NCBI GenBank assembly: GCA_026196545.1
Contig: JAPHSZ010000085.1
Location: 1 to 37,084 of the forward strand
Length of the DNA: 37,084 bases
From: Gammaproteobacteria bacterium
GTDB lineage: Bacteria; Pseudomonadota; Gammaproteobacteria; SZUA-229
Direction of reading: 5' to 3'
Shown: positions 4,986-28,445 of the stretch, piece after piece
How the letters are laid out: the number at the start of each line of letters is the position of its first letter
Position numbering within the stretch: position 1 is the stretch's first letter
Position numbers and translations under genes: made by a program
Notes under the pieces: model-generated
Told to the model about the DNA's origin: nothing
What the model saw: only the letters and a program-made list of their open reading frames with translations
Database searches by the model: none

Positions 4986-6257
4986 CTAATCTTCCAGTTT
5001 TTTAATGCCCAGTGTTTTGAGAATAAAACGCTCGTACAATGGGTCGGTATTGCCTTTTTTCATTTTGCGTATAAAGTATTTTTCAAAGCCGATTTTCGCC
5101 TGATGCACCCATTTACCCTTCTTGAACCAGGTAACATTTCGCGGTGGTATTTGCGGCAGGGCAACAAAGGCCGCTCCGGTGTCACCCATATCAGCCAGGC
5201 AGATGGCATTCCAGGTTGCATTGGCTTCAGGCTCCTTACCATTAATTTCACTTGCGATATTTTTCACTATCGCGGTCGCCATAGACTCAATCATATAACC
5301 GGTTTTGGGTGCACCGGTTGCAACAGGTGTGGCTTCAACAGGGGGAATAGCCACACACACGCCTGCTGAATAAATATTGGTGTATTTTGGATTACGCTGA
5401 TGCTCATCAATCATGACAAAACCACGGGGATTGCACAGGCCTTCAACCTCTGCCACTGCATCGACACCCTTGAACGCAGGCAACATCATTGAATAGTTAA
5501 ATGGCAGCTCATGCTGTTTCTTCACATTGCCATCATCATCCATTTCATCAACATACATCATGCCATCTTCCACTTTGGTGGTTTTTGCATTGGTGATGAA
5601 CTTGATATTGTGATTGCGCAGATCACTTTCCAGCATGCCCCTGGAGTCACCCACACCACCAAGTCCCAGGTGCCCAATGTAAGGCTCTGAGGTCACAAAC
5701 GTCATTGGCACTTTGCTACGTAGCTTCTTTTTACGCAGCGCACAATCGAGGATAAAGGCAAACTCATAAGCTGGGCCGAAACAGCTGGCGAAAGGCATGG
5801 CACCAATAATCACCGGGCCGGGATTTTCAAGCAGCCTGTTGTAATCACCCATCGCCGTCACCGCATGCTCCGTAGTACAGATTGAAGCGGTATGACCTTC
5901 GGGGCCGGAGCCCGGTACTTCTTCAAAGGCAAGCCTGGGACCAGTGGTAATAACCAGATAATCATAATCAACCGGATCACCACTCTGTAGCTCCAGTTTG
6001 TTATTTTCAGCATCGATTCTGGTCACTCGATCCTGAATAAAGTTGATGCCTTTTTTTGCCAGCACGGGCGCCAGTGGCACAGAGATATTTTCATGCGTGC
6101 GCCAGCCAACAGCAACCCACGGATTAGACGGGGTGAACTGAAAATGATCACGCTCATTAATAATGGTGATCTGGTGCATCTTCTCCAGCTCTTCCTTCAT
6201 TTCGTAAGCACAGGGTAAACCCCCTACGCCGGCTCCAAGTATGACAATGTGCGCCAT
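4986..6257 (-). CDS. sqr: Sulfide:quinone oxidoreductase, Type I
   Basis: This 423-residue flavoprotein oxidises sulfide to sulfane sulfur and passes electrons to the quinone pool at the inner-membrane surface. It has the N-terminal dinucleotide motif GAGVGG (9-14). All three cysteines expected of Type I SQR by comparison with the Acidithiobacillus ferrooxidans enzyme are present: Cys127 (SICTTEH), Cys159 (ASCFGPAYE) and Cys353 (NAICLADMGD). Other close matches are PSNPWVAVGW, SEPYIGHLGLGG, PAFKGV and the C-terminal FEKYFIRKMKKG amphipathic segment used for membrane attachment. The start is supported by GAGGAAAA 5-12 bp upstream. The gene is divergent from a sigma-54 activator and has a matching -24/-12 promoter, so it is probably induced by that regulator. 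Flavocytochrome c is a less likely alternative. Confidence 0.95.
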   Translation of the reverse strand: MAHIVILGAGVGGLPCAYEMKEELEKMHQITIINERDHFQFTPSNPWVAVGWRTHENISVPLAPVLAKKGINFIQDRVTRIDAENNKLELQSGDPVDYDYLVITTGPRLAFEEVPGSGPEGHTASICTTEHAVTAMGDYNRLLENPGPVIIGAMPFASCFGPAYEFAFILDCALRKKKLRSKVPMTFVTSEPYIGHLGLGGVGDSRGMLESDLRNHNIKFITNAKTTKVEDGMMYVDEMDDDGNVKKQHELPFNYSMMLPAFKGVDAVAEVEGLCNPRGFVMIDEHQRNPKYTNIYSAGVCVAIPPVEATPVATGAPKTGYMIESMATAIVKNIASEINGKEPEANATWNAICLADMGDTGAAFVALPQIPPRNVTWFKKGKWVHQAKIGFEKYFIRKMKKGNTDPLYERFILKTLGIKKLED

Positions 6258-7872: not shown

Positions 7873-8328
7873 ATGAAAACAATAGAAAACAAAAGCCGCA
7901 GAGACATATTACTGGGTGCGGCCGCCGTCGCTGCAACATTTGCCAGCGATAGCGCCTTTTCCGCATCAGAGCATAATCACGATATGCATAACCATGCCAG
8001 CGGTAATCAGGACATCATCGATGCCGCACTGGACTGCGTTAAAACCGGCATGGCCTGCAATGACCACTGCATCGAACTGCTAAAAGACGGTGATACTTCT
8101 ATTGTTAACTGCATGGATGTTTTATCAGAAACCCTGGCCATGTGTACCGCACTCTCACAAATGGCCTCCTACCAATCTTCCCACCTTGCTGCTGTGGCAA
8201 AAGTTTGCATCTCTGTCTGTGAAGACTGTGAAAAAGAATGCCGCAAGCACGAGAAAAAACACGCTGCCTGTAAAGCCTGCGCCGAATCCTGCAAAGACTG
8301 CATTGATGCCTGTAAAAAAATCGCCTGA
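7873..8328 (+). CDS. Tat-exported Cys-rich four-helix-bundle copper-binding protein (Csp1/DUF326-like)
   Basis: This 151-residue protein has a twin-arginine signal (SRRDILLGAAAVAATFA), so it is probably folded and loaded before export. The mature part has a short His/Met stretch (HNHDMHNHA) and then helices studded with 14 Cys, many as CxxxC or CxxC (VCISVCEDCEKEC; ACKACAESCKDC). This is the pattern of the copper storage proteins (Csp), which line a four-helix bundle with thiolates that bind many Cu(I) ions. The ribosome site AGGAAAT precedes the ATG. It lies 73 bp after the sigma-54 activator. Copper storage is inferred from the family; other soft metals remain possible. Confidence 0.85.
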   Translation: MKTIENKSRRDILLGAAAVAATFASDSAFSASEHNHDMHNHASGNQDIIDAALDCVKTGMACNDHCIELLKDGDTSIVNCMDVLSETLAMCTALSQMASYQSSHLAAVAKVCISVCEDCEKECRKHEKKHAACKACAESCKDCIDACKKIA

Positions 8329-15168: not shown

Positions 15169-16619
<1,451 letters not shown>

Positions 16620-16620
<1 letters not shown>

Positions 16621-17024
16621 TGAATACTTTCAGCCTGGTCATTCTGGATGCCACCCATAGCGAAACCATCGACAACGTCAGCTCCTTTGTCGGTGAAGAC
16701 AGCAGCGGCTCTTTCGGCATTCTTGCCGGCCATGCGCGCATGATCACAACCCTGGTAATGGGGCTGGCGCGTTATCGTATTGCCGATCAGCCATGGCAAT
16801 ACCTGGCCCAGCCCGGTGCCGTGCTCTATTTCAGCGACAACCTTCTTACCATCAGTACACGCCATTATCTTCGTGATGAAAACTATATGCGCATCAGCAA
16901 CGACCTGGCGCAGAAACTACTGGTTGAAGAAGAGCAATTACATACGGTCAAACAAAACCTGCAGAAGATGGAAGAAGAGATTCTCAAACATATGTGGGAA
17001 CTGCGTCGTGAGGGGGTCCAGTGA
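16620..17024 (+). CDS. atpC: Alternate F1Fo ATPase, epsilon subunit
   Basis: This 134-residue protein has the N-terminal beta-sandwich of the epsilon family (SFGILAGHARMITTL is the family GxxGxxPxHxxxxT-like segment) and a C-terminal helical hairpin ending in an acidic/basic helix. The start is taken at ATG 16620, overlapping the atpD stop (TGATG) with GGAGG about 10 bp upstream; the open frame upstream lies inside atpD. In F-ATPases epsilon couples rotation and restrains ATP hydrolysis. Placing it second, directly after beta, fits the N-ATPase order. Confidence 0.93.
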
Positions 17025-17293
17025 TGAAATCACCAGAAGACCTTCGGAAACAGGTGGAACAGCAGGCACGGCGCATGCAACAGGCAGAAAAGGATCGCCC
17101 GACCCTGATGGGACAGACCATCTACATCGGTACATTGGGGCTGGTGCTGATTCTGCCAATCATTGGCGGTGCTTACCTGGGACTCTGGCTGGACAGCCTT
17201 GACCCTGACTATTCGGCATTCTGGACGATAAGCCTGATACTGCTGGGTGTGATCATCGGTATGTTTAACGTCTATTATTTTATTAAGGATTAA
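17024..17293 (+). CDS. atpQ: AtpQ (AtpI-like 'gene 1' protein) of the alternate ATPase
   Basis: This protein of about 89 residues has a charged helical N-terminus (about 1-28) and two TM helices (about 34-54 and 65-86). The hairpin GGAYLGLWLDSL is characteristic of the ATPase gene-1/AtpI family, thought to assist c-ring assembly or ion handling. The start is read as ATG 17024 overlapping the atpC stop; a GTG at 17021 is an alternative. Only 4 bp separate it from atpB, so there is no room for the three-TM AtpR protein that normally lies between AtpQ and AtpB in N-ATPase operons. Confidence 0.88.
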   Translation: MKSPEDLRKQVEQQARRMQQAEKDRPTLMGQTIYIGTLGLVLILPIIGGAYLGLWLDSLDPDYSAFWTISLILLGVIIGMFNVYYFIKD

Positions 17294-17297
17294 CATC

Positions 17298-18255
<958 letters not shown>

Positions 18256-18291
18256 TGATCATAAACCAAGGCAATAACAGGAGTACTGACA

Positions 18292-19041
18292 TTGGAACTT
18301 AACTGGTCCACCTTTATATTGGAGATATTCAATTTCCTGGTACTGGTCTGGATACTGAAGCGTTTTCTATACCAGCCCGTGCTCGATGTCATTGCGCGAC
18401 GACGCGCCATGATAGAGAACCAGCTGGCCGAGGCCGAGCAGCACCATGCCGAAGCCAATGCCCTAAAAGAGCAGTACGAACATCGCCTGGCCGACTGGGA
18501 ACAGGAACGCGAACAGGCCAGCGACGATTTACAGCAGGAGCTCGAACAGGTTCGTGTTGAACAGCTGTCTGTCCAGCAGACAGAGCGCGACCAGGAAGAG
18601 GAAAAAATGCGTGTCGCCCGCTCCCGCCAGGAACAGCAGGCGGTACGCGAAATCGAACAGCAGGCCCTGCAGCAGGGAGCAGTATTTGCCTCCCGGCTAC
18701 TCACCGAGGCCGCAGGCCCAGAACTCGAAAACCGCTTATTCGGCCTCCTGCTAAACGAGCTCAATAACCTGCCGGCAGAGCAAATTAGCCGCCTTAGCGT
18801 TAAATGGGGGGAGCCGCCCGAGCAGATCCAGGTCAGCAGTGCCTATCCGCTCACCGATGAACAACGCCAGCAACTGGAGCGCGCCCTGAGTAAAGTCACC
18901 GGGCTGTCTGTGCCGGTACTGTATGACCAGGACACCCGGCTGCTGGCCGGACTCAGCATCAATATTGGTGACTGGGCGCTGCAACTGAATGTACGTGATG
19001 AACTGCAGGACTTCACGGAGTTTGTCCATGTTGAGCGCTAA
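18292..19041 (+). CDS. atpF: Alternate F1Fo ATPase, b subunit with delta-like C-terminal domain
   Basis: This 249-residue protein starts at TTG 18292, preceded by AGGAG. It has one TM helix (about 6-27), a long Gln/Glu/Arg-rich coiled coil (about 32-130) and a C-terminal region (about 180-245). That region reads like the end of the delta/OSCP subunit ([19 protein letters not shown], then [20 protein letters not shown]). The operon has no separate atpH, so this fusion-like protein probably supplies both stator functions. It overlaps atpA by 14 bp. The usual b subunit is only about 156 residues. Confidence 0.92.
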
Positions 19042-20524
19042 CTTCAGCACAGCCGAGCTGGTCGGCCAGCAGGCAGCGTGGTTAAAGGCATATCGCCCGG
19101 GTATGCGGATCAGGGAACAGGGCAAGGTGGTTTCCATCGGTGACGGCATCGCCTGGATTTCCGGCCTGCCGATGGCAGCCATCGATGACATACTGGCGTT
19201 TGATGATGGCAGCCGCGCTATGGTGTTTGACCTCACCGAAAACCAGATTGGCGCGGTGCTGCTGCACCAGACCGAACAGTTAACCGCCGGCAGCCGGGCC
19301 AGCCTTACCGGCCGGCTGCTGAGTATGCCGGTAGGCGATGCCCTGCTTGGCAGGATTGTCGATCCCCAGGGCATTCCGCTGGACGACCAGGCACTGCCAG
19401 CCAACCTGCCCTGCCAGCGACTGGAAATAAAATCACCGGCAATCGTCGAACGCGATTTTGTGCACGAGCCGCTTTACACCGGTATTAAGATTATCGATAC
19501 CCTGGTCCCGATCGGCAAAGGCCAGCGCCAGCTGCTGATCGGTGATGAAGGCCTTGGCCGCAGTTCGATTGCCCTCGACACGGTCATCAACCAGCGCGGC
19601 AAGGATGTGCGCTGCGTGTACGTGTTAATTGGCCAGAAACGTAGCAAGGTGGTCAATATCATCAACACCCTGCAGGATTACAACGCCATGGACTACACCA
19701 CAGTGGTGGTGGCCGAGGCCAGCGGCCTGCCCGGGCTGCAACACCTGGCGCCTTTCGCCGGCTGCGCCATCGCCGAATTCTGGATGCACCAGGGCCATGA
19801 CACCCTGGTGGTTTATGATGACCTGTCGGCGCATGCCAGAACCTACCGTGAACTGTCCCTGCTGTTACGCCGGCCACCCGGACGCGAGGCCTTTCCCGGT
19901 GATATTTTTTCGGTACATGCCCGCCTGCTGGAACGCGCCACCTGCCTGAATGCCGCCCATGGTGGCGGCAGCATGACGGCGCTGCCAATTATCGAGACCA
20001 AGCAGGGTGAAATAGCCGCCTATATTCCGACCAACCTCATTTCCATCACCGATGGCCAGATCTACCTTGACCACAGCCTGTTTGTCGCTGGCTTTAGGCC
20101 CGCCATCGACATCGCCCGCTCGGTCTCGCGTATCGGTGGTGCTGCCCAGCACCGGCGCATCAAGGAAGAGGCCGGGCGTATGAAACTCGACTATCTACAG
20201 TATCTTGAACTGGAGGTATTTACACGTTTTGGTGCCCGGGTTGAGGCTTCGATGGAGGCAGCAATCAAACGTGGCCGGGTGCTGCGCGAATTGCTCAAGC
20301 AGGACCGGCTGGCCCCCCTGCCGGTGACCGTGCAACTGGCCTGGCTGATTGCCTTCAACGACGGTTACTTTGACGACATTGAACCCGAGGCGGCCGCCAG
20401 GCAGTTCGACACCCTGTTGCAGCACACCCGCCATTCTAAACTGGTGCTGGACAGCCCGAGGGCACAGTGGTCCGAACTTGTGGCACACAGCCTGGCCACA
20501 ACAAGACAGCAACAAACACCATGA
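19028..20524 (+). CDS. atpA: Alternate F1Fo ATPase, alpha subunit with altered P-loop
   Basis: This 498-residue protein is read from ATG 19028, which has GGAG 7 bp upstream; an in-frame ATG at 18989 would extend it by 13 residues into atpF. It has [10 protein letters not shown], the P-loop region, [17 protein letters not shown] and the arginine-finger segment [10 protein letters not shown] (Arg368). The nucleotide-binding loop reads GDEGLGRSS (172-180) where alpha subunits normally have GDRQTGKTA. The P-loop Lys is therefore Arg178, which may weaken nucleotide binding at the non-catalytic site. The rest is well conserved, so this is not a decaying gene. Confidence 0.95.
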
Positions 20525-21360
20525 GCCAGCGCCGGGATCTTGAAAAACATCGCCACAGCCTGATTGAAATTCGCGACATCATGAACGCGATGAAAAACCT
20601 GGCTTACATGGAGACGCGAAAAATCAGCGGCTTTCTTGATGCCCAGCATGCTGTGGTCAAGCACGTTGAAAAAGTGGCCAGCGATTTCCTTAATTTTTAT
20701 CCGCAGGTTCTGGCAGAAAACGCAACCTCTTCTACCGAGGTTTACCTTCTGGTTGGCACAGAACGTGGCTTCTGTGGTGACTTTAACCATGCCCTGCAGA
20801 ATTATTTTAAAAACATCGAAAAACCAGACGACACCAGTCACCGGCACATCATCGCTGTCGGCCATAAATTACAGATTTTATTAGACCATGAGGAACACAC
20901 CACCAGCTTTATCGAAGGTGCCAGCGTTGCCGAAGAAGTCAACAATGTGCTTAATCAGGTGGTGGATCAACTATCAGCCATTCAGCAGCAGTCTGGCTCA
21001 CTCAACTTATATGTCATCTACCACGACAGTGAACACCATTTAGTCAATCAGCAACTCCTGCCCTCGTTTCAGTCATTTCTGCGTTACAAATCCACAGAAA
21101 CGATTGCCCCGGAATTAAATATCAAACCGACAAAGTTATTGGTCGAGTTAAGCTTCCACTACCTGTTCGCTGCATTAAATGAAATTTTGTATACATCTCT
21201 GATGGCCGAAAGCCGCCTGCGCTTTTCCAGCCTGGAAGGCACAGTGCAGCAAATAGATAAACAATCCGAACAGCTGCAGCGTCAGGGCAACGTCCTGCGC
21301 CAGGAGGAAATCATCGAAGAAATTGAAGTCATCCTGTTGAGTGCAGTCAACCTTGACTGA
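20521..21360 (+). CDS. atpG: Alternate F1Fo ATPase, gamma subunit
   Basis: This 279-residue central-stalk protein is read from ATG 20521, overlapping the atpA stop as ATGA. The N-terminal helix ([18 protein letters not shown]) matches the gamma family start, where the usual pattern is I-x-S-x-x-x-x-x-x-I-T-x-A-M. The central Rossmann-like part contains [15 protein letters not shown], and the C-terminal helix ends [16 protein letters not shown]. It is the last gene of the operon. Its base composition is visibly more AT-rich than that of atpD to atpA. No good terminator follows; the CTGCT/AGCAG hairpin at 21365-21379 lacks a T-run. Confidence 0.92.
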
Positions 21361-23480: not shown

Positions 23481-23520
23481 AAAAGCTGCAATCACATCAT
23501 CTGTGATTACAGCTTTTGTT
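23481..23520. terminator. Bidirectional intrinsic terminator
   Basis: AAAAGCTG-c-AATCACA pairs with TGTGATT-a-CAGCTTTT, a 15-bp stem with one internal mismatch around a 5-nt loop. A-rich and T-rich flanks allow termination from either side. It lies between the convergent CDF gene and the cytochrome gene at 23527. Confidence 0.85.
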
Positions 23521-23526
23521 CTTTAT

Positions 23527-23997
23527 CTACTTAGCAGCAGGAATGGCATCCACTCTATAGGCTGCGTGGCAGCTTACACAGTTTTGCATTAACTCACTCA
23601 GTTGCTCCAGGCTGAAAGCAGGGTCTCCAAATTGTTTCGCCGACGCTGCCAGTTCATCAAATTTATTATGGGTGTCAAATCCCAGCCTTTTAAATTCAAG
23701 TGGTAGCTTTTTCATTAGCGAGCCAGGAACGGCTGCCTGTGCTGCACGGCCTACAATAGTTGCTGCCGCCGCAATAGCTTCAGGATCATCCTGATTCGCA
23801 GCTTGAATGATTTGCTGAACTGCACTCAAAAACATTCTCATTTCTGTTAAAACAAGGTCTCTTTCACCTTCTTCCAGCATTAATGATTGCCTGCCATCTT
23901 TTGCGGTGAGGGTTTCACCGGAAATAATAAATTTATAGGCCATGGTGCCTATAGCAACAAGGGCACACAGCAAAAACGCCCAACATAATTTACACAT
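23527..23997 (-). CDS. c-type cytochrome with C-terminal CxxCH (class II / c'-like)
   Basis: This 156-residue protein has an N-terminal hydrophobic segment (about 5-25) that could be a signal or membrane anchor. A four-helix-like body and a single heme-attachment site follow, Cys140-Val-Ser-Cys143-His144, near the C-terminus (QNCVSCHAAYRV). C-terminal heme placement is typical of class II cytochromes such as cytochrome c' and c-556. The start has a good AAGGAAA ribosome site. It is the last gene of the minus-strand set cytochrome, FadL-like, DUF2892, small ORF, cytochrome, and ends at a bidirectional terminator. The axial ligand and function (electron transfer or NO/CO binding) are not determined. 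Confidence 0.88.
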   Translation of the reverse strand: MCKLCWAFLLCALVAIGTMAYKFIISGETLTAKDGRQSLMLEEGERDLVLTEMRMFLSAVQQIIQAANQDDPEAIAAAATIVGRAAQAAVPGSLMKKLPLEFKRLGFDTHNKFDELAASAKQFGDPAFSLEQLSELMQNCVSCHAAYRVDAIPAAK

Positions 23998-24039
23998 AAT
24001 AATTTCCTTGCATCTATTTAGTTATAAATTCCAGCCTGC

Positions 24040-24129
24040 TTATTCAAACATAAGGTAAGCCAGAATAAGAGCAGTAAGCAGCCACAGTAGTATGGCTGTT
24101 ACCTTTAGTTTTTTTTTAACAGGAACCAT
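24040..24129 (-). CDS. Candidate 29-residue single-TM microprotein
   Basis: Reading the minus strand from ATG 24129 gives a 29-residue peptide with a basic N-terminus (MVPVKKKLKV) and one strongly hydrophobic helix (TAILLWLLTALILAYLMF), ending at TAA. The positive-inside pattern and the position between two co-oriented genes (22 bp after the DUF2892 stop, 42 bp before the cytochrome start) support a real small membrane protein. The ribosome site is weak (AGAG region), so chance cannot be excluded. No family is recognised. Confidence 0.45.
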   Translation of the reverse strand: MVPVKKKLKVTAILLWLLTALILAYLMFE

Positions 24130-24151
24130 ATCTGATTGCTCTGTTAATTCC

Positions 24152-24352
24152 TTAGCAGCAATTACCTTCACTAACACCGATTTTCTTCAGGATAGAGGCT
24201 AAAGGGCAAAGGTTTGTTATACCACTTTGTGCGAGATTAAAACCAACAAAGGCAGCTAACCCTATCCAGTATGGATGTACGAAGTGTGCCAAAGCGATGC
24301 TAATCATCACCATCGTGCCAGCTACCAATCGAACTATTCTATCAACTGTCAT
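24152..24352 (-). CDS. DUF2892 (YgaP-type) small membrane protein
   Basis: This 66-residue protein has two TM helices (about 8-24 and 28-45) and the DUF2892 signature near the end (GITNLCPLASILKKIGV). In this family the motif often reads GFCP-x-x-x-x-LK-x-LG. It also ends in a Cys-Cys pair (EGNCC). Some YgaP-type proteins carry a rhodanese domain; this one is the membrane part only. A strong AGGAGAA ribosome site overlaps the end of the FadL-like gene 14 bp upstream, so the two are co-transcribed. A role in sulfur or thiol trafficking is conceivable but inferred. Confidence 0.87.
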   Translation of the reverse strand: MTVDRIVRLVAGTMVMISIALAHFVHPYWIGLAAFVGFNLAQSGITNLCPLASILKKIGVSEGNCC

Positions 24353-24366
24353 ATTTTTCTCCTGAA

Positions 24367-25509
24367 TTACATTTTATAAGATATTTGGAAATTAATTATG
24401 TTCTGTTCCAGCTCGATTTTATTAGGTGAAGTACTGGATTTTAATTCATTATTGAAGGCATGCAGCAGGGAAAATGATCCTTCTACACGTTTACCCAGCT
24501 TGCGAGTTACACCAACAGACAAGTGGCTCTCAGTAATCGCCAGTGAGCCAATATTACTATCAACATCTTCTTCACCTATAGGTGATTTACCATGGTTAAA
24601 TCCGGCACGTAATGTGGTTTTGTCGCTAATCTTTTTCTGTACGCCTAGAGCAATCACTACCTGATCTTCCCATCCAAAATTCATAGCTGAGGGTCCAGCT
24701 GGCGTTTTGAAATCTACTTTGTCAAGGACATCTGAAAAAGCGATATGCTTTATATCTGCCTCAATCAACAAGCCATCACCTGGTTGGTATGCCAGTCCAA
24801 CAGTCACTGTTTGAGGCGCATCCATAGTCATTGAATAATCACCAGCCGTCGTATTCCATTCAAATGCACTCATGGATTGTTTGCTGACATAGGACGCGCC
24901 TAATTGCATTGTATCACTCAATTTATAAATCAGGCCCAGCGTAATACCAAAACCATACACCTGTTTCTGTGGTAAATGCATCTGCTCATTATCTATTGCA
25001 AGACTCTGGTAATTGATATTTAAGGCTGCGCCCAGTGCCATTTCCTTGCTCATCTGGTATGAGAACCCGGGAGCAATTCTATAAAATTGTTTTGTAGTGA
25101 CTACATTCTGATTACCCGGTAAAGGCGCAATATCTTCAAAATCCACACCCATACCTGACAGGCCCGCCATACCTACACCGAAGCTAAGCTCATCATCTAT
25201 TTTAAAAGCCACGGCACCAGACGGTATCAGGTATAAATTTGAATCGCTCTCTTCACCATTAGCTTTACGCGGCGGATTCAGAAAACCAAAGCCCATATCG
25301 AAACGAACATCTTCCATACCCAACAACGAAAGGCCCGCTGGATTGGTTATAATTGTTCCGCTATCCTGAGGTGCTGCGACAGAGGCACCAGCCATACCCC
25401 ACTGGGTCGCGGTAACACCTAGCATCTGGTCACCATTAGTTGCATATGCAGAAGTAGCACTTACAAGTGCAACAGCTACAGCTCCTTTTATCAGTTTTTT
25501 ATTCATCAT
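24367..25509 (-). CDS. OmpP1/FadL/TodX-family outer-membrane transporter
   Basis: This 380-residue protein has a signal peptide (KKLIKGAVAVALVSATSAYA, cleavage near residue 24). The FadL family N-terminal hatch region follows, with QWGMAGASVAAPQDSGTI and the conserved NPAGLSLL, then alternating amphipathic beta strands. The last residues (IINFQISYKM) suit an outer-membrane beta-barrel end. FadL channels carry long-chain fatty acids or hydrophobic aromatics across the outer membrane; the substrate here is unknown. The ribosome site GGAGAG supports the start, with a second ATG 3 bp in. It lies between c-type cytochrome genes in the same operon-like set. The 95-bp upstream gap shows nothing certain. 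Confidence 0.9.
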   Translation of the reverse strand: MMNKKLIKGAVAVALVSATSAYATNGDQMLGVTATQWGMAGASVAAPQDSGTIITNPAGLSLLGMEDVRFDMGFGFLNPPRKANGEESDSNLYLIPSGAVAFKIDDELSFGVGMAGLSGMGVDFEDIAPLPGNQNVVTTKQFYRIAPGFSYQMSKEMALGAALNINYQSLAIDNEQMHLPQKQVYGFGITLGLIYKLSDTMQLGASYVSKQSMSAFEWNTTAGDYSMTMDAPQTVTVGLAYQPGDGLLIEADIKHIAFSDVLDKVDFKTPAGPSAMNFGWEDQVVIALGVQKKISDKTTLRAGFNHGKSPIGEEDVDSNIGSLAITESHLSVGVTRKLGKRVEGSFSLLHAFNNELKSSTSPNKIELEQNIINFQISYKM

Positions 25510-25604
25510 TGCTCTCCTCGTTTTGATATTGGCTTTGCTTTTCTAAAATTATTGTTTTAAATAACTGCTTGTACTTAATATTACCTTATTAAAATTTGAA
25601 GGTT

Positions 25605-26243
25605 TTATCGTAAACGATTTGAAAGTCCGGGCTGCCCCCTGAATGTCTGGTGACAGGCAACACATCCCTCCATAATTTTTCCGAGATAATTTGTGGCTTC
25701 ATTAACATTGCCCTTGTCTGCGGCCTCTGCAAGGCGCTTCGCATTGCCCTCAACGAGATCGTTAAATCCGACAAGACTGGACAGCTTGTTGTCATTGACA
25801 TCTTCTTTCGCCATATATGGAATAAGTCCACCAACGGGCAAGCGATGGTTTGCCAGACGGCGTGCAGAGTCAGCTGCCTGCTCTGTATTATCTGTCGCCA
25901 GACCGGAAACTATGCTTTGATAATCTGATAGCACTTCATGCATAACCTGACGTAGTGTCAGCTGTTTGCTGCGACGACTATGCTGTGAAAGAATTTTCAT
26001 CATGTCCATTTTGGTTTTTTTAGACAAGCTCTTAACCTGTTTCTGTAAATCAGGCTTCATTAATGCCATATCAGACTTCATTACTTTCTGCATTTCCATC
26101 ATTGTTGATTTGTCCATTGCTGGCACATTATCATTAGCATAACTGGCACCAGCAGTTAAAATCAGGGTCATCCCAATAGTTGCGTTGCGCATGATGTTAC
26201 TTAGTAACTTAATTTCGAAATTCTTTGTTGAACATGTAAACAT
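25605..26243 (-). CDS. Exported c-type cytochrome, Met-rich N-terminus, C-terminal CxxCH
   Basis: This protein has 212 residues from ATG 26243, which has GGAAG upstream. An internal start at 26192 would give a cleaner signal peptide (MRNATIGMTLILTAGASYA), so the start is uncertain. The mature N-terminal half is rich in Met and Lys (MMEMQKVMKSDMALMK). The C-terminal half looks like a four-helix cytochrome with one heme site, Cys194-Val-Ala-Cys197-His198 (MEGCVACHQTFR). It is the first gene of the minus-strand set with the FadL-like protein and the second cytochrome, and is divergent from a two-component system. A periplasmic electron-transfer or sensing role is inferred. Confidence 0.85.
   Translation of the reverse strand: MFTCSTKNFEIKLLSNIMRNATIGMTLILTAGASYANDNVPAMDKSTMMEMQKVMKSDMALMKPDLQKQVKSLSKKTKMDMMKILSQHSRRSKQLTLRQVMHEVLSDYQSIVSGLATDNTEQAADSARRLANHRLPVGGLIPYMAKEDVNDNKLSSLVGFNDLVEGNAKRLAEAADKGNVNEATNYLGKIMEGCVACHQTFRGQPGLSNRLR
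26196..26208. repeat. Perfect inverted repeat near the cytochrome start
   Basis: GTTACT-T-AGTAAC is a perfect 6-1-6 palindrome. It lies just upstream of the internal start candidate (26192) of the cytochrome and inside the longer reading frame. It shares GTTAC/GTAAC half-sites, in opposite arrangement, with the palindrome at 26356-26372. If the shorter start is right, it is a leader or operator element. Confidence 0.35.
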
Positions 26244-26355
26244 TTTTTTTCTTCCAGTTTAGTATCAGGTGGTTATATGCTACCTTTGCTTACAGATAGC
26301 CTGACTAAATAATGGAACAAACATGTTTCGCTTTTATTTCAGAATTAATGACAAA

Positions 26356-26372
26356 TGTAACAAATTGTTACA
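26356..26372. promoter_or_regulatory. Perfect 17-bp palindrome, candidate operator before the response regulator
   Basis: TGTAACAA-A-TTGTTACA is a perfect 8-1-8 inverted repeat ending 12 bp before the response-regulator ATG, in the 141-bp divergent region 26244-26384. Its right half, with GTTACA, resembles half-sites used by OmpR/RstA-type regulators. It could serve autoregulation and also control of the divergent cytochrome gene. No confident -35/-10 pair was found in this gap. Confidence 0.6.
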
Positions 26373-26384
26373 AGAGCCGGATTA

Positions 26385-27110
26385 ATGAGTGAACCAGACC
26401 TTAAGCCAGAAAAAATACTGATAGTCGATGATGACAAAAACTTATGCGCACTTATTAAGCGCTATTTGTCTGAGAATGGCTATACGGCACTGTCGGCAAA
26501 AAATGGCGCTGAAATGTACAGCCTACTGGAGCAGACCACACCTGATCTAATTATTATGGATCTTATGCTGCCAGGCGATGATGGCCTGACACTAGCCAAG
26601 TCAATCAGAAGCAAGGGTAATATACCGATCATCATATTATCTGCACGTGGCGATGAAGTTGATCGCATAGTAGGGCTGGAAGTTGGTGCGGATGATTACC
26701 TCCCCAAGCCTTTTAATCCCAGAGAGCTACTAGCACGTATTCGCTCTGTGTTAAGGCGCACTCATTCAAATACTGATCATGCAACAGCTGGCAGCCAGGA
26801 CCTGGTTTTTGATAACTATCGTCTACTCTCCCAAAGCAGGCAATTATTTTACAATGATAAAGAAGTGACGCTAACCAGTGGTGAATTTACCTTATTAGAG
26901 GTATTTGCTAACCACCCTAACCGAATACTGAACCGGGATTCACTATTACAATTACTAAAGGGCTACGAGCATCAGCCCTATGACCGCAGTATTGACGTAC
27001 GCATTACACGTCTACGACGAAAAATTGAACCGGATCCATCAAAACCCATCTATATTCGTACCATCTGGGGAGAAGGCTATATGTTCACCCCTAAGCCTGA
27101 TGAACACTAG
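26385..27110 (+). CDS. OmpR-family response regulator
   Basis: This 241-residue protein has an N-terminal receiver domain (about 10-125) with the acidic pocket VDDD (15-17), phospho-acceptor Asp59 (IIMDLMLP), switch residue Ser87 and Lys108 (LPKPF). A winged-helix DNA-binding domain (about 140-238) follows, ending RSIDVRITRLRRKIE and IRTIWGEGYMF. The sequence is closest in feel to OmpR/RstA. It is followed after 9 bp by its cognate kinase gene. A perfect palindrome before its start suggests autoregulation, and the divergent cytochrome/FadL set is an obvious candidate target. Confidence 0.95.
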   Translation: MSEPDLKPEKILIVDDDKNLCALIKRYLSENGYTALSAKNGAEMYSLLEQTTPDLIIMDLMLPGDDGLTLAKSIRSKGNIPIIILSARGDEVDRIVGLEVGADDYLPKPFNPRELLARIRSVLRRTHSNTDHATAGSQDLVFDNYRLLSQSRQLFYNDKEVTLTSGEFTLLEVFANHPNRILNRDSLLQLLKGYEHQPYDRSIDVRITRLRRKIEPDPSKPIYIRTIWGEGYMFTPKPDEH

Positions 27111-27119
27111 TTTTTTATA

Positions 27120-28445
27120 ATGCTGCCAAAAACACTATTTGCCCAAACTCTAACAACAATTGCAACTGTCTCAGCAGCATACTTGATATTTTCCTTCAGT
27201 GTTATTGGCTATTTTATGCTGGTTCCTGTAGGCAAGCAGTCAGCAAATGATCTGGCATCACTCATGATCTTTAGTGCACACAAATGGACAGAAACCAGTG
27301 TTGAGGAACGCTCTAAATTTGAACAGGATTTACTCAAAGACTATCAACTAAGTATCGCCGTAGACCAGCCAATAGAATCGGTTAATTTCAAGCCCTTGCC
27401 TTATTATTATTTCCTGGAATCATCGCTCAAGTCGCGCACTGGCAAAAATGTTTCTCTCAAAATCTCACAGGACATTAATGGCGTGGATTGGTACTGGGCT
27501 GATTTATTTATTAATAACAGAAACGTACGGATAGGGTTCTCCAGTTCACATGTAGACGCTCAGCCACCGCTGGTTTTAATCTTACTGCTGGTGGTTGGTG
27601 GCCTGGCAACATTGGCTACAGCAGCCGCGCTGGTTCGATACCTGACAACACCGCTGGAAAGACTTTCAGAAAATGCATTACGGGTAGGCAGTGGCGAAGA
27701 GCCTGAGCTAATTCCTGAAACAGGCCCTGAGGAAATGATTACCCTGGCAAAAAGTTTTAACAAAATGGCGGTACAGGTAAAAGAATTACTAAGCAACCGC
27801 ACAACATTACTAGCGGGAATATCTCATGACCTGAGAACACCACTTACACGCATTCAACTAGCCATTGAAATGCTGCCAGATGATGCCGACCCGGTTCTTG
27901 TCGATGGTGTACAAAATGATGTTAACCAAATGAACTGCCTGATTGGACAATTTCTTGAGTTAAGCAAAACACTGGAAAAGGGTGAACAACAGACTATCGA
28001 TATTAATAAAGCACTTGATGACCTGGTTAATTGTGCAAAACGAAGTGGTGCAAATATCCAATGGCATCCTGGTGGTCAATGCAGGGTGGTTAATAACCCG
28101 ATGGCTTTACAGCGTATTATTGTAAATTTATTAGAAAATGCCATTCGTTATGGTAGCGGTCATCCCGTTGAAATAACTTACTCATGCAATGATGATTTTG
28201 CAGAAATAAAAATTATGGATAGAGGGCCTGGCATACCAGACAACGAAATTGAATCCGTCTTCAGGCCTTTTTACCGATTAGAGCAGTCACGTAACAAAGA
28301 GAATGGCGGCACAGGCCTTGGCTTGAGTATTGCGTTACAGCTTGCTGAAATTAATGAAATTAAAATTCAGCTCTATGCCCGGGATGGAGGCGGCACCGTA
28401 GCTAAAGTAACCGTTCCCGTTAAACAATCAGTTTTACAAATATAG
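27120..28445 (+). CDS. EnvZ-like sensor histidine kinase
   Basis: This 441-residue inner-membrane protein has TM1 (about 12-35), a periplasmic sensor loop of about 110 residues (40-148), TM2 (about 150-172), HAMP (about 173-226) and HisKA with His236 (GISHDLRTPLTRIQLA). HATPase_c follows, with N-box IVNLLENAIRYG, G1 DRGPGIP and G2 GGTGLGLSIA. The layout is that of EnvZ/RstB and pairs with the OmpR-type regulator just upstream. No good ribosome site is seen before the ATG, consistent with coupling to the upstream gene. The periplasmic loop has several Trp and Tyr; its ligand is unknown. Confidence 0.94.
   Translation: MLPKTLFAQTLTTIATVSAAYLIFSFSVIGYFMLVPVGKQSANDLASLMIFSAHKWTETSVEERSKFEQDLLKDYQLSIAVDQPIESVNFKPLPYYYFLESSLKSRTGKNVSLKISQDINGVDWYWADLFINNRNVRIGFSSSHVDAQPPLVLILLLVVGGLATLATAAALVRYLTTPLERLSENALRVGSGEEPELIPETGPEEMITLAKSFNKMAVQVKELLSNRTTLLAGISHDLRTPLTRIQLAIEMLPDDADPVLVDGVQNDVNQMNCLIGQFLELSKTLEKGEQQTIDINKALDDLVNCAKRSGANIQWHPGGQCRVVNNPMALQRIIVNLLENAIRYGSGHPVEITYSCNDDFAEIKIMDRGPGIPDNEIESVFRPFYRLEQSRNKENGGTGLGLSIALQLAEINEIKIQLYARDGGGTVAKVTVPVKQSVLQI

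Follow-up and report, generated by a model that had tools for sequence, protein, structure and literature searches.

The window analysed here, the whole 37,084-nt stretch of contig JAPHSZ010000085.1, carries five tightly spaced genes on its minus strand and a divergent OmpR/EnvZ-type pair on its plus strand, all of them present at the coordinates that the initial annotation gave. The minus-strand set begins with cytA (25605-26243), for an exported monoheme c-type cytochrome with a four-helix c556/b562-like domain, a CVACH motif at the C-terminal end and an N-terminal helical extension. It continues with genes for a FadL/TodX-type outer-membrane channel of a conserved subfamily (24367-25509), a small DUF2892 membrane protein of the YgaP-like TM family with an invariant CPL motif (24152-24352), and a 29-residue microprotein, MVPVKKKLKVTAILLWLLTALILAYLMFE, with a single predicted transmembrane segment (24040-24129), which is recognisable in six same-family relatives by the pattern M..KKLK..A..LW..TALI..YL.S. 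The last gene, cytB (23527-23997), encodes a second c556-like monoheme cytochrome (CVSCH). Neighbouring genes of the set lie 95, 14, 22 and 42 bp apart, a Shine-Dalgarno-like GGAAGA precedes the start of cytA at 26243, and cytB is followed by a terminator-like bidirectional hairpin at 23481-23517 (minus-strand RNA fold z = -5.6) that closes the set. Scans for sigma-70 promoters and terminators gave no improvement over shuffled sequences. On the plus strand lie the response regulator (26385-27110) and the sensor histidine kinase (27120-28445), the latter with HAMP, HisKA and HATPase domains; OmpR and EnvZ are their nearest families, with both proteins scoring below the NCBIfam equivalog cut-offs (282 against 331 for OmpR and 273 against 415 for EnvZ).

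Between the two sets lies a candidate operator, TGTAACAAATTGTTACA (26356-26372), made up of tandem TGTWACA half-sites in 10-bp phase and placed 12 bp ahead of the regulator start codon and ~110 bp upstream of cytA. All eight family genomes compared retain it, while its flanks diverge. The site had been described as palindromic, and in this genome it is, but one close relative carries TGTAACAAATTGTAACA, in which a single substitution makes a direct repeat of the palindrome, and two or three TGTWACA units in 10-bp phase occur in several distant carriers, including direct repeats such as TAACAGGCTGTAACAGGTTGTAACAGG. Given these direct repeats the palindromic reading was dropped, and the candidate operator is better read as a putative OmpR-type tandem site; the tandem direct-repeat arrangement typical of the OmpR subfamily is found as conserved, 10-bp-phased TGTWACA across carriers. 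A search of the source genome with up to one mismatch returned TGTAACAAATTGTTACA as the sole match, and a regulon reaching beyond the locus was rejected on this ground; no matches were expected by chance in the window search. The candidate operator may exert local control in both directions. A second conserved block ahead of cytA (26244-26290; GTTTAGTATCAGGTGGTTGTATGCTACC in plus orientation) is perhaps the cytA promoter or leader.

Channel, DUF2892 protein and cytochromes

The channel belongs to PF03349 (FadL/Toluene_X; 87.9 bits, cut-off 29.7), and its nearest solved structures by sequence are TodX, TbuX and CymD. The predicted model (pLDDT 73) has the FadL fold, a barrel of ~14 strands with an N-terminal hatch, of which the first 36 residues are of low confidence, and its best PDB matches by fold are all FadL/TodX proteins (TM ~0.7). 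Sequence and fold thus agree on the FadL-type assignment made earlier. An NPA motif at residues 56-58 is invariant. The protein scores only 24.6 bits against the NCBIfam equivalog for E. coli FadL, the long-chain fatty acid transporter (cut-off 585). The DUF2892 protein (PF11127; 47.2 bits, cut-off 25.3) shares its TM family with the sulfane-sulfur-linked E. coli YgaP, a membrane sulfurtransferase (PMC4730233), but stands alone, unlike YgaP, with no rhodanese domain.

Both cytochromes resemble the cytochrome c'/c556/b562 family (PF01322, Cytochrom_C_2) in having a four-helix bundle, a C-terminal CxxCH and a b562/c'-like fold. CytB scores above the family cut-off of 26.5 bits (27.9), while cytA falls just below it (23.6), and the best fold matches of cytA are cytochromes b562 and c', at a weak E of 0.1. 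CytA further differs from PF01322 in a conserved N-terminal extension of ~45 residues, formed in the model (mean pLDDT 75) by helices at residues 45-88; P64, S74, H88 and S92 are invariant. The cytA group looks like a new, c556-like cytochrome subfamily. The N-terminal hydrophobic segment of cytB is probably a membrane anchor. Profile comparison relates cytA to cytB over the heme domain and aligns the invariant Met of both, and in the cytB profile this helix-1 Met aligns with Met7 of cytochrome b562, the axial ligand of that protein. We infer that both proteins are c556-like electron carriers with a low-spin heme ligated by Met and His; the invariant Met would be consistent with electron transfer. 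Cytochrome c', in contrast, has no sixth ligand at this position, and identification as a high-spin, NO-binding cytochrome c' is disfavoured by this alignment.

Conservation and variation among carriers

A survey of co-occurrence, which had been proposed as a check on the cluster, found it kept beyond the source genome, which overturns one of the refuting conditions set for it; the gene order recurs in more than 20 genomes, and this places the cluster beyond chance. The core consists of cytA, a barrel and the DUF2892 gene, usually with the two-component pair, and spans at least 10 families of the class Gammaproteobacteria, beta lineages counted in. Close relatives of the FadL-type protein occur in 12 other genomes among the 96 nearest, in 9 of the 369 genomes of an even class sample (own genome counted; 50-68% identity outside the own family), and in three beta-lineage MAGs, from Burkholderiales, Rhodocyclaceae and one labelled Propionivibrio. 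Nearly every FadL relative is flanked by cytA and the DUF2892 gene in the same order, and most have the divergent pair beside them.

Automatic gene calls and all-against-all comparison of the neighbourhoods found no other gene common to distant carriers, which ruled out a larger conserved neighbourhood. Neither the carbonic anhydrase gene of the window nor its TRAP, CDF or F-ATPase genes are common to these neighbourhoods, and the shared neighbours include no recognisable dsr, sox or sqr gene. A plasmid search returned, among its best matches, distant FadL relatives only (<30% identity). Elsewhere in the window, a second-type, N-ATPase-like F-ATPase operon (beta, epsilon, small subunit, a, c, b, alpha, gamma) lies at 15223-21360, an apparent exported copper-storage (Csp-like) protein with a Tat-like signal, a His-rich N-terminus and a DUF326 match at 7873-8328, and an SQR-like flavoprotein (Pyr_redox_2) adjoining a sigma-54 activator, which fits sulfide oxidation, at 4986-6257.

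Correlations between the distance matrices of five genes (cytA, FadL, DUF2892, regulator and kinase) give r of 0.64-0.93, a level reached in 0 of 999 permutations. In all five gene trees the window clusters with other genera of its family, and two species of its own genus fall far away. Because the five trees agree with one another but conflict with genus membership, the unit is judged to move horizontally as a block. Its distribution is patchy.

The claim that the genes form one conserved unit is supported, with corrections to its membership. CytB and the microprotein are additions of particular lineages, namely the own family and a few more, the two-component pair is absent from three carriers (G360, G362 and G385), and the FadL slot is exchangeable. 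In G087, G206 and G341 this slot is filled by an unrelated predicted barrel of ~385 residues that bears no resemblance to FadL and scores 21.4 bits against Phenol_MetA_deg (cut-off 22), and in G067, which has the pair, cytA and DUF2892, it is empty; FadL is therefore ruled out as an indispensable part. The acceptance of an unrelated predicted barrel suggests that a class of channel is kept rather than one protein, and what stays constant across carriers is cytA with DUF2892, usually joined by a barrel of the hydrophobic type. The alternative barrel gene of G087 is broken across several frames (L079, 9173-10605), through either pseudogene formation or sequencing indels. In G010, cytA is cleanly missing while FadL, DUF2892, microprotein, cytB, pair and operator are present (L027, 8141-12399), a natural deletion. 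G024 has a solitary cytA, as has G043, where it lies directly behind a DUF1207 gene (L095, 122-1894) whose product may be a partner barrel of yet another kind, the third. G001 carries a second cytB-like gene ~8 kb away from the unit (L034, 306-773).

Association with dsrA and cytochrome d1

In the 369-genome sample, drawn evenly across the class, 13 carriers were counted by the FadL subfamily or a strong cytA. With one carrier (G260) scored on a partial dsrA, all 13 have dsrA, against 117 of 369 genomes overall (Fisher p = 2e-7, in counts whose genomes are not independent); the association persists without the own family (p = 2e-6) and by family (p ~2e-5, assuming roughly 167 families). Cytochrome-d1 genes are present in 12 of the 13 carriers and in 73 of the 369 genomes (p = 2e-8), and the three beta MAGs, which lie outside this sample, have both dsrA and cytochrome d1. 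The unit so marks sulfur-oxidising denitrifiers, dsrA alone being no proof of the oxidative direction. Among dsrA genomes the unit occurs in 12 of 54 with cytochrome d1 and in 1 of 63 without, and among cytochrome-d1 genomes in 12 of 54 with dsrA and in none of 19 without. A further 42 genomes of the sample have both traits and no unit, showing that it is not essential. This association with dsr and cytochrome cd1 directs attention to sulfur oxidation, denitrification or both, and away from fatty acids or aromatics generally; it may also reflect shared habitat and gene exchange. The genome profile leaves sulfur and nitrogen functions unseparated, as the unit tracks cytochrome d1 among dsrA carriers.

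Comparison with known systems and possible function

All parts belong to known families and, in keeping with the novelty claimed initially, no described system with this combination was found in the literature searched. TodX/TodST-type toluene loci are the closest solved relatives by sequence and likewise place a FadL-superfamily channel near a two-component system; the unit differs from them in its OmpR/EnvZ-type regulator in place of TodST, its lack of catabolic genes and its cytochrome and DUF2892 partners. Porin-cytochrome conduits (MtrCAB/MtoAB, Cyc2) also combine a barrel with a c-type cytochrome, whereas the unit has separate monoheme four-helix cytochromes and a FadL-type hatch barrel. 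The OprD-like porins of Campylobacterota, proposed for S0 uptake, are outer-membrane barrels too, in a proposal that is equally unproven, but they are of another barrel family and phylum, and the part of the source that deals with them names no cytochrome operon or dedicated pair (PMC10045233). No S0 channel family has yet been proven that could serve as a reference (PMC10045233). The locus is best described as a regulated FadL-type envelope locus with a putative new cytochrome subfamily.

A role as an extracellular electron-transfer conduit akin to the porin-cytochrome systems is highly improbable. Cytochrome genes do adjoin an outer-membrane barrel, but what was found is monoheme four-helix CxxCH proteins only, with no multiheme or surface cytochrome and no cytochrome-porin fusion, and the FadL fold, with its N-terminal hatch and lateral exit, is not an open pore. 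We also think it improbable that the unit is a module for envelope stress or redox homeostasis in redoxcline bacteria, linked to dsr and cytochrome d1 by shared habitat and gene exchange only; the OmpR/EnvZ-like pair, the patchy presence and the horizontal movement would fit such a module, but the operator occurs once in the source genome, which indicates local rather than global control, and a conserved core of heme protein and channel would be unusual in a general stress system. That the unit simply takes up or senses a hydrophobic organic compound (an aromatic, a fatty acid or a quinone) at the outer membrane, with the cytochromes serving a periplasmic oxidation step, is unlikely, if less so. 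FadL, TodX and CymD carry such compounds and the alternative barrel scores near Phenol_MetA_deg; against this, the neighbours common to carriers include no catabolic gene, the conserved partners are a cytochrome and DUF2892, and so strict a link to dsrA is unexpected under general hydrocarbon uptake.

Somewhat better placed, though still rather unlikely, is a role in denitrification, in which the unit would sense or handle NO, nitrite or sulfide reaction products (e.g. nitrosopersulfide), with the cytochromes as donors or NO-binders and the channel as an accessory. CytB falls in the Pfam family of cytochrome c', some members of which bind NO, and the cytochrome-d1 counts in the carriers, in the beta MAGs and within the dsrA genomes all favour such a role. 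In Bradyrhizobium, moreover, a DUF2892 gene lies within the NnrR regulon of denitrification (PMC6710368). It sits poorly with the absence of the unit from the 19 cytochrome-d1 genomes that lack dsrA and with G087, a complete carrier that has no cytochrome d1; the alignment of the invariant Met with b562 Met7 suggests a six-coordinate heme with no open NO site, and a hydrophobic-substrate channel has no obvious NO role. The Met and the channel modestly favour sulfur over nitrogen, although statistically the nitrogen alternative is nearly as good.

The explanation we tentatively prefer, while rating it below an even chance, is that the seven genes form a self-contained, horizontally moving envelope unit that handles hydrophobic zero-valent sulfur and is coupled to periplasmic cytochromes. 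Retention of the unit in sulfur-oxidising denitrifiers, with a channel, a low-spin cytochrome and a YgaP-like protein as its constant parts, fits such a substrate. The OmpR/EnvZ-type pair would sense an envelope signal and act on the single, dedicated tandem site that separates it from the divergent putative operon. This operon would produce an outer-membrane channel of a class through which hydrophobic molecules pass laterally, FadL/TodX in this genome and an unrelated predicted barrel in others, together with a periplasmic cytochrome of the low-spin c556-like type and a thiol-containing YgaP-like inner-membrane protein, to which the own family would add a membrane-anchored second cytochrome and the microprotein. 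S8 or polysulfanes may then be handled at the outer membrane, with sulfur activation or oxidation coupled to the periplasmic cytochrome pool and feeding the Dsr pathway. Regulation, substrate, transport direction and electron flow are all inferred. In Azospira suillum a DUF2892 gene is up ~10-fold during sulfide oxidation, while its deletion barely alters that oxidation (PMC5358917). A. vinosum is reported to favour chain sulfur over S8 rings, which counts against this explanation. More doubtful is the further proposition that Dsr-type oxidisers possess here a dedicated, two-component-regulated outer-membrane S0 system that joins an exchangeable hydrophobic channel to a new c556-like cytochrome subfamily.

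Two sources treat the passage of zero-valent sulfur, with its poor solubility, through the outer membrane of sulfur oxidisers as an open question and state that no experiment has confirmed a transport protein (PMC10045233, PMC11267869). A conserved channel and heme proteins with their own switch, in this survey found only in dsrA-bearing genomes, supply a small set of deletion targets. If true, the S0 reading would answer how Dsr-type oxidisers take up solid or colloidal sulfur; if the nitrogen alternative is right, the unit would be an unrecognised part of sulfur-driven denitrification.
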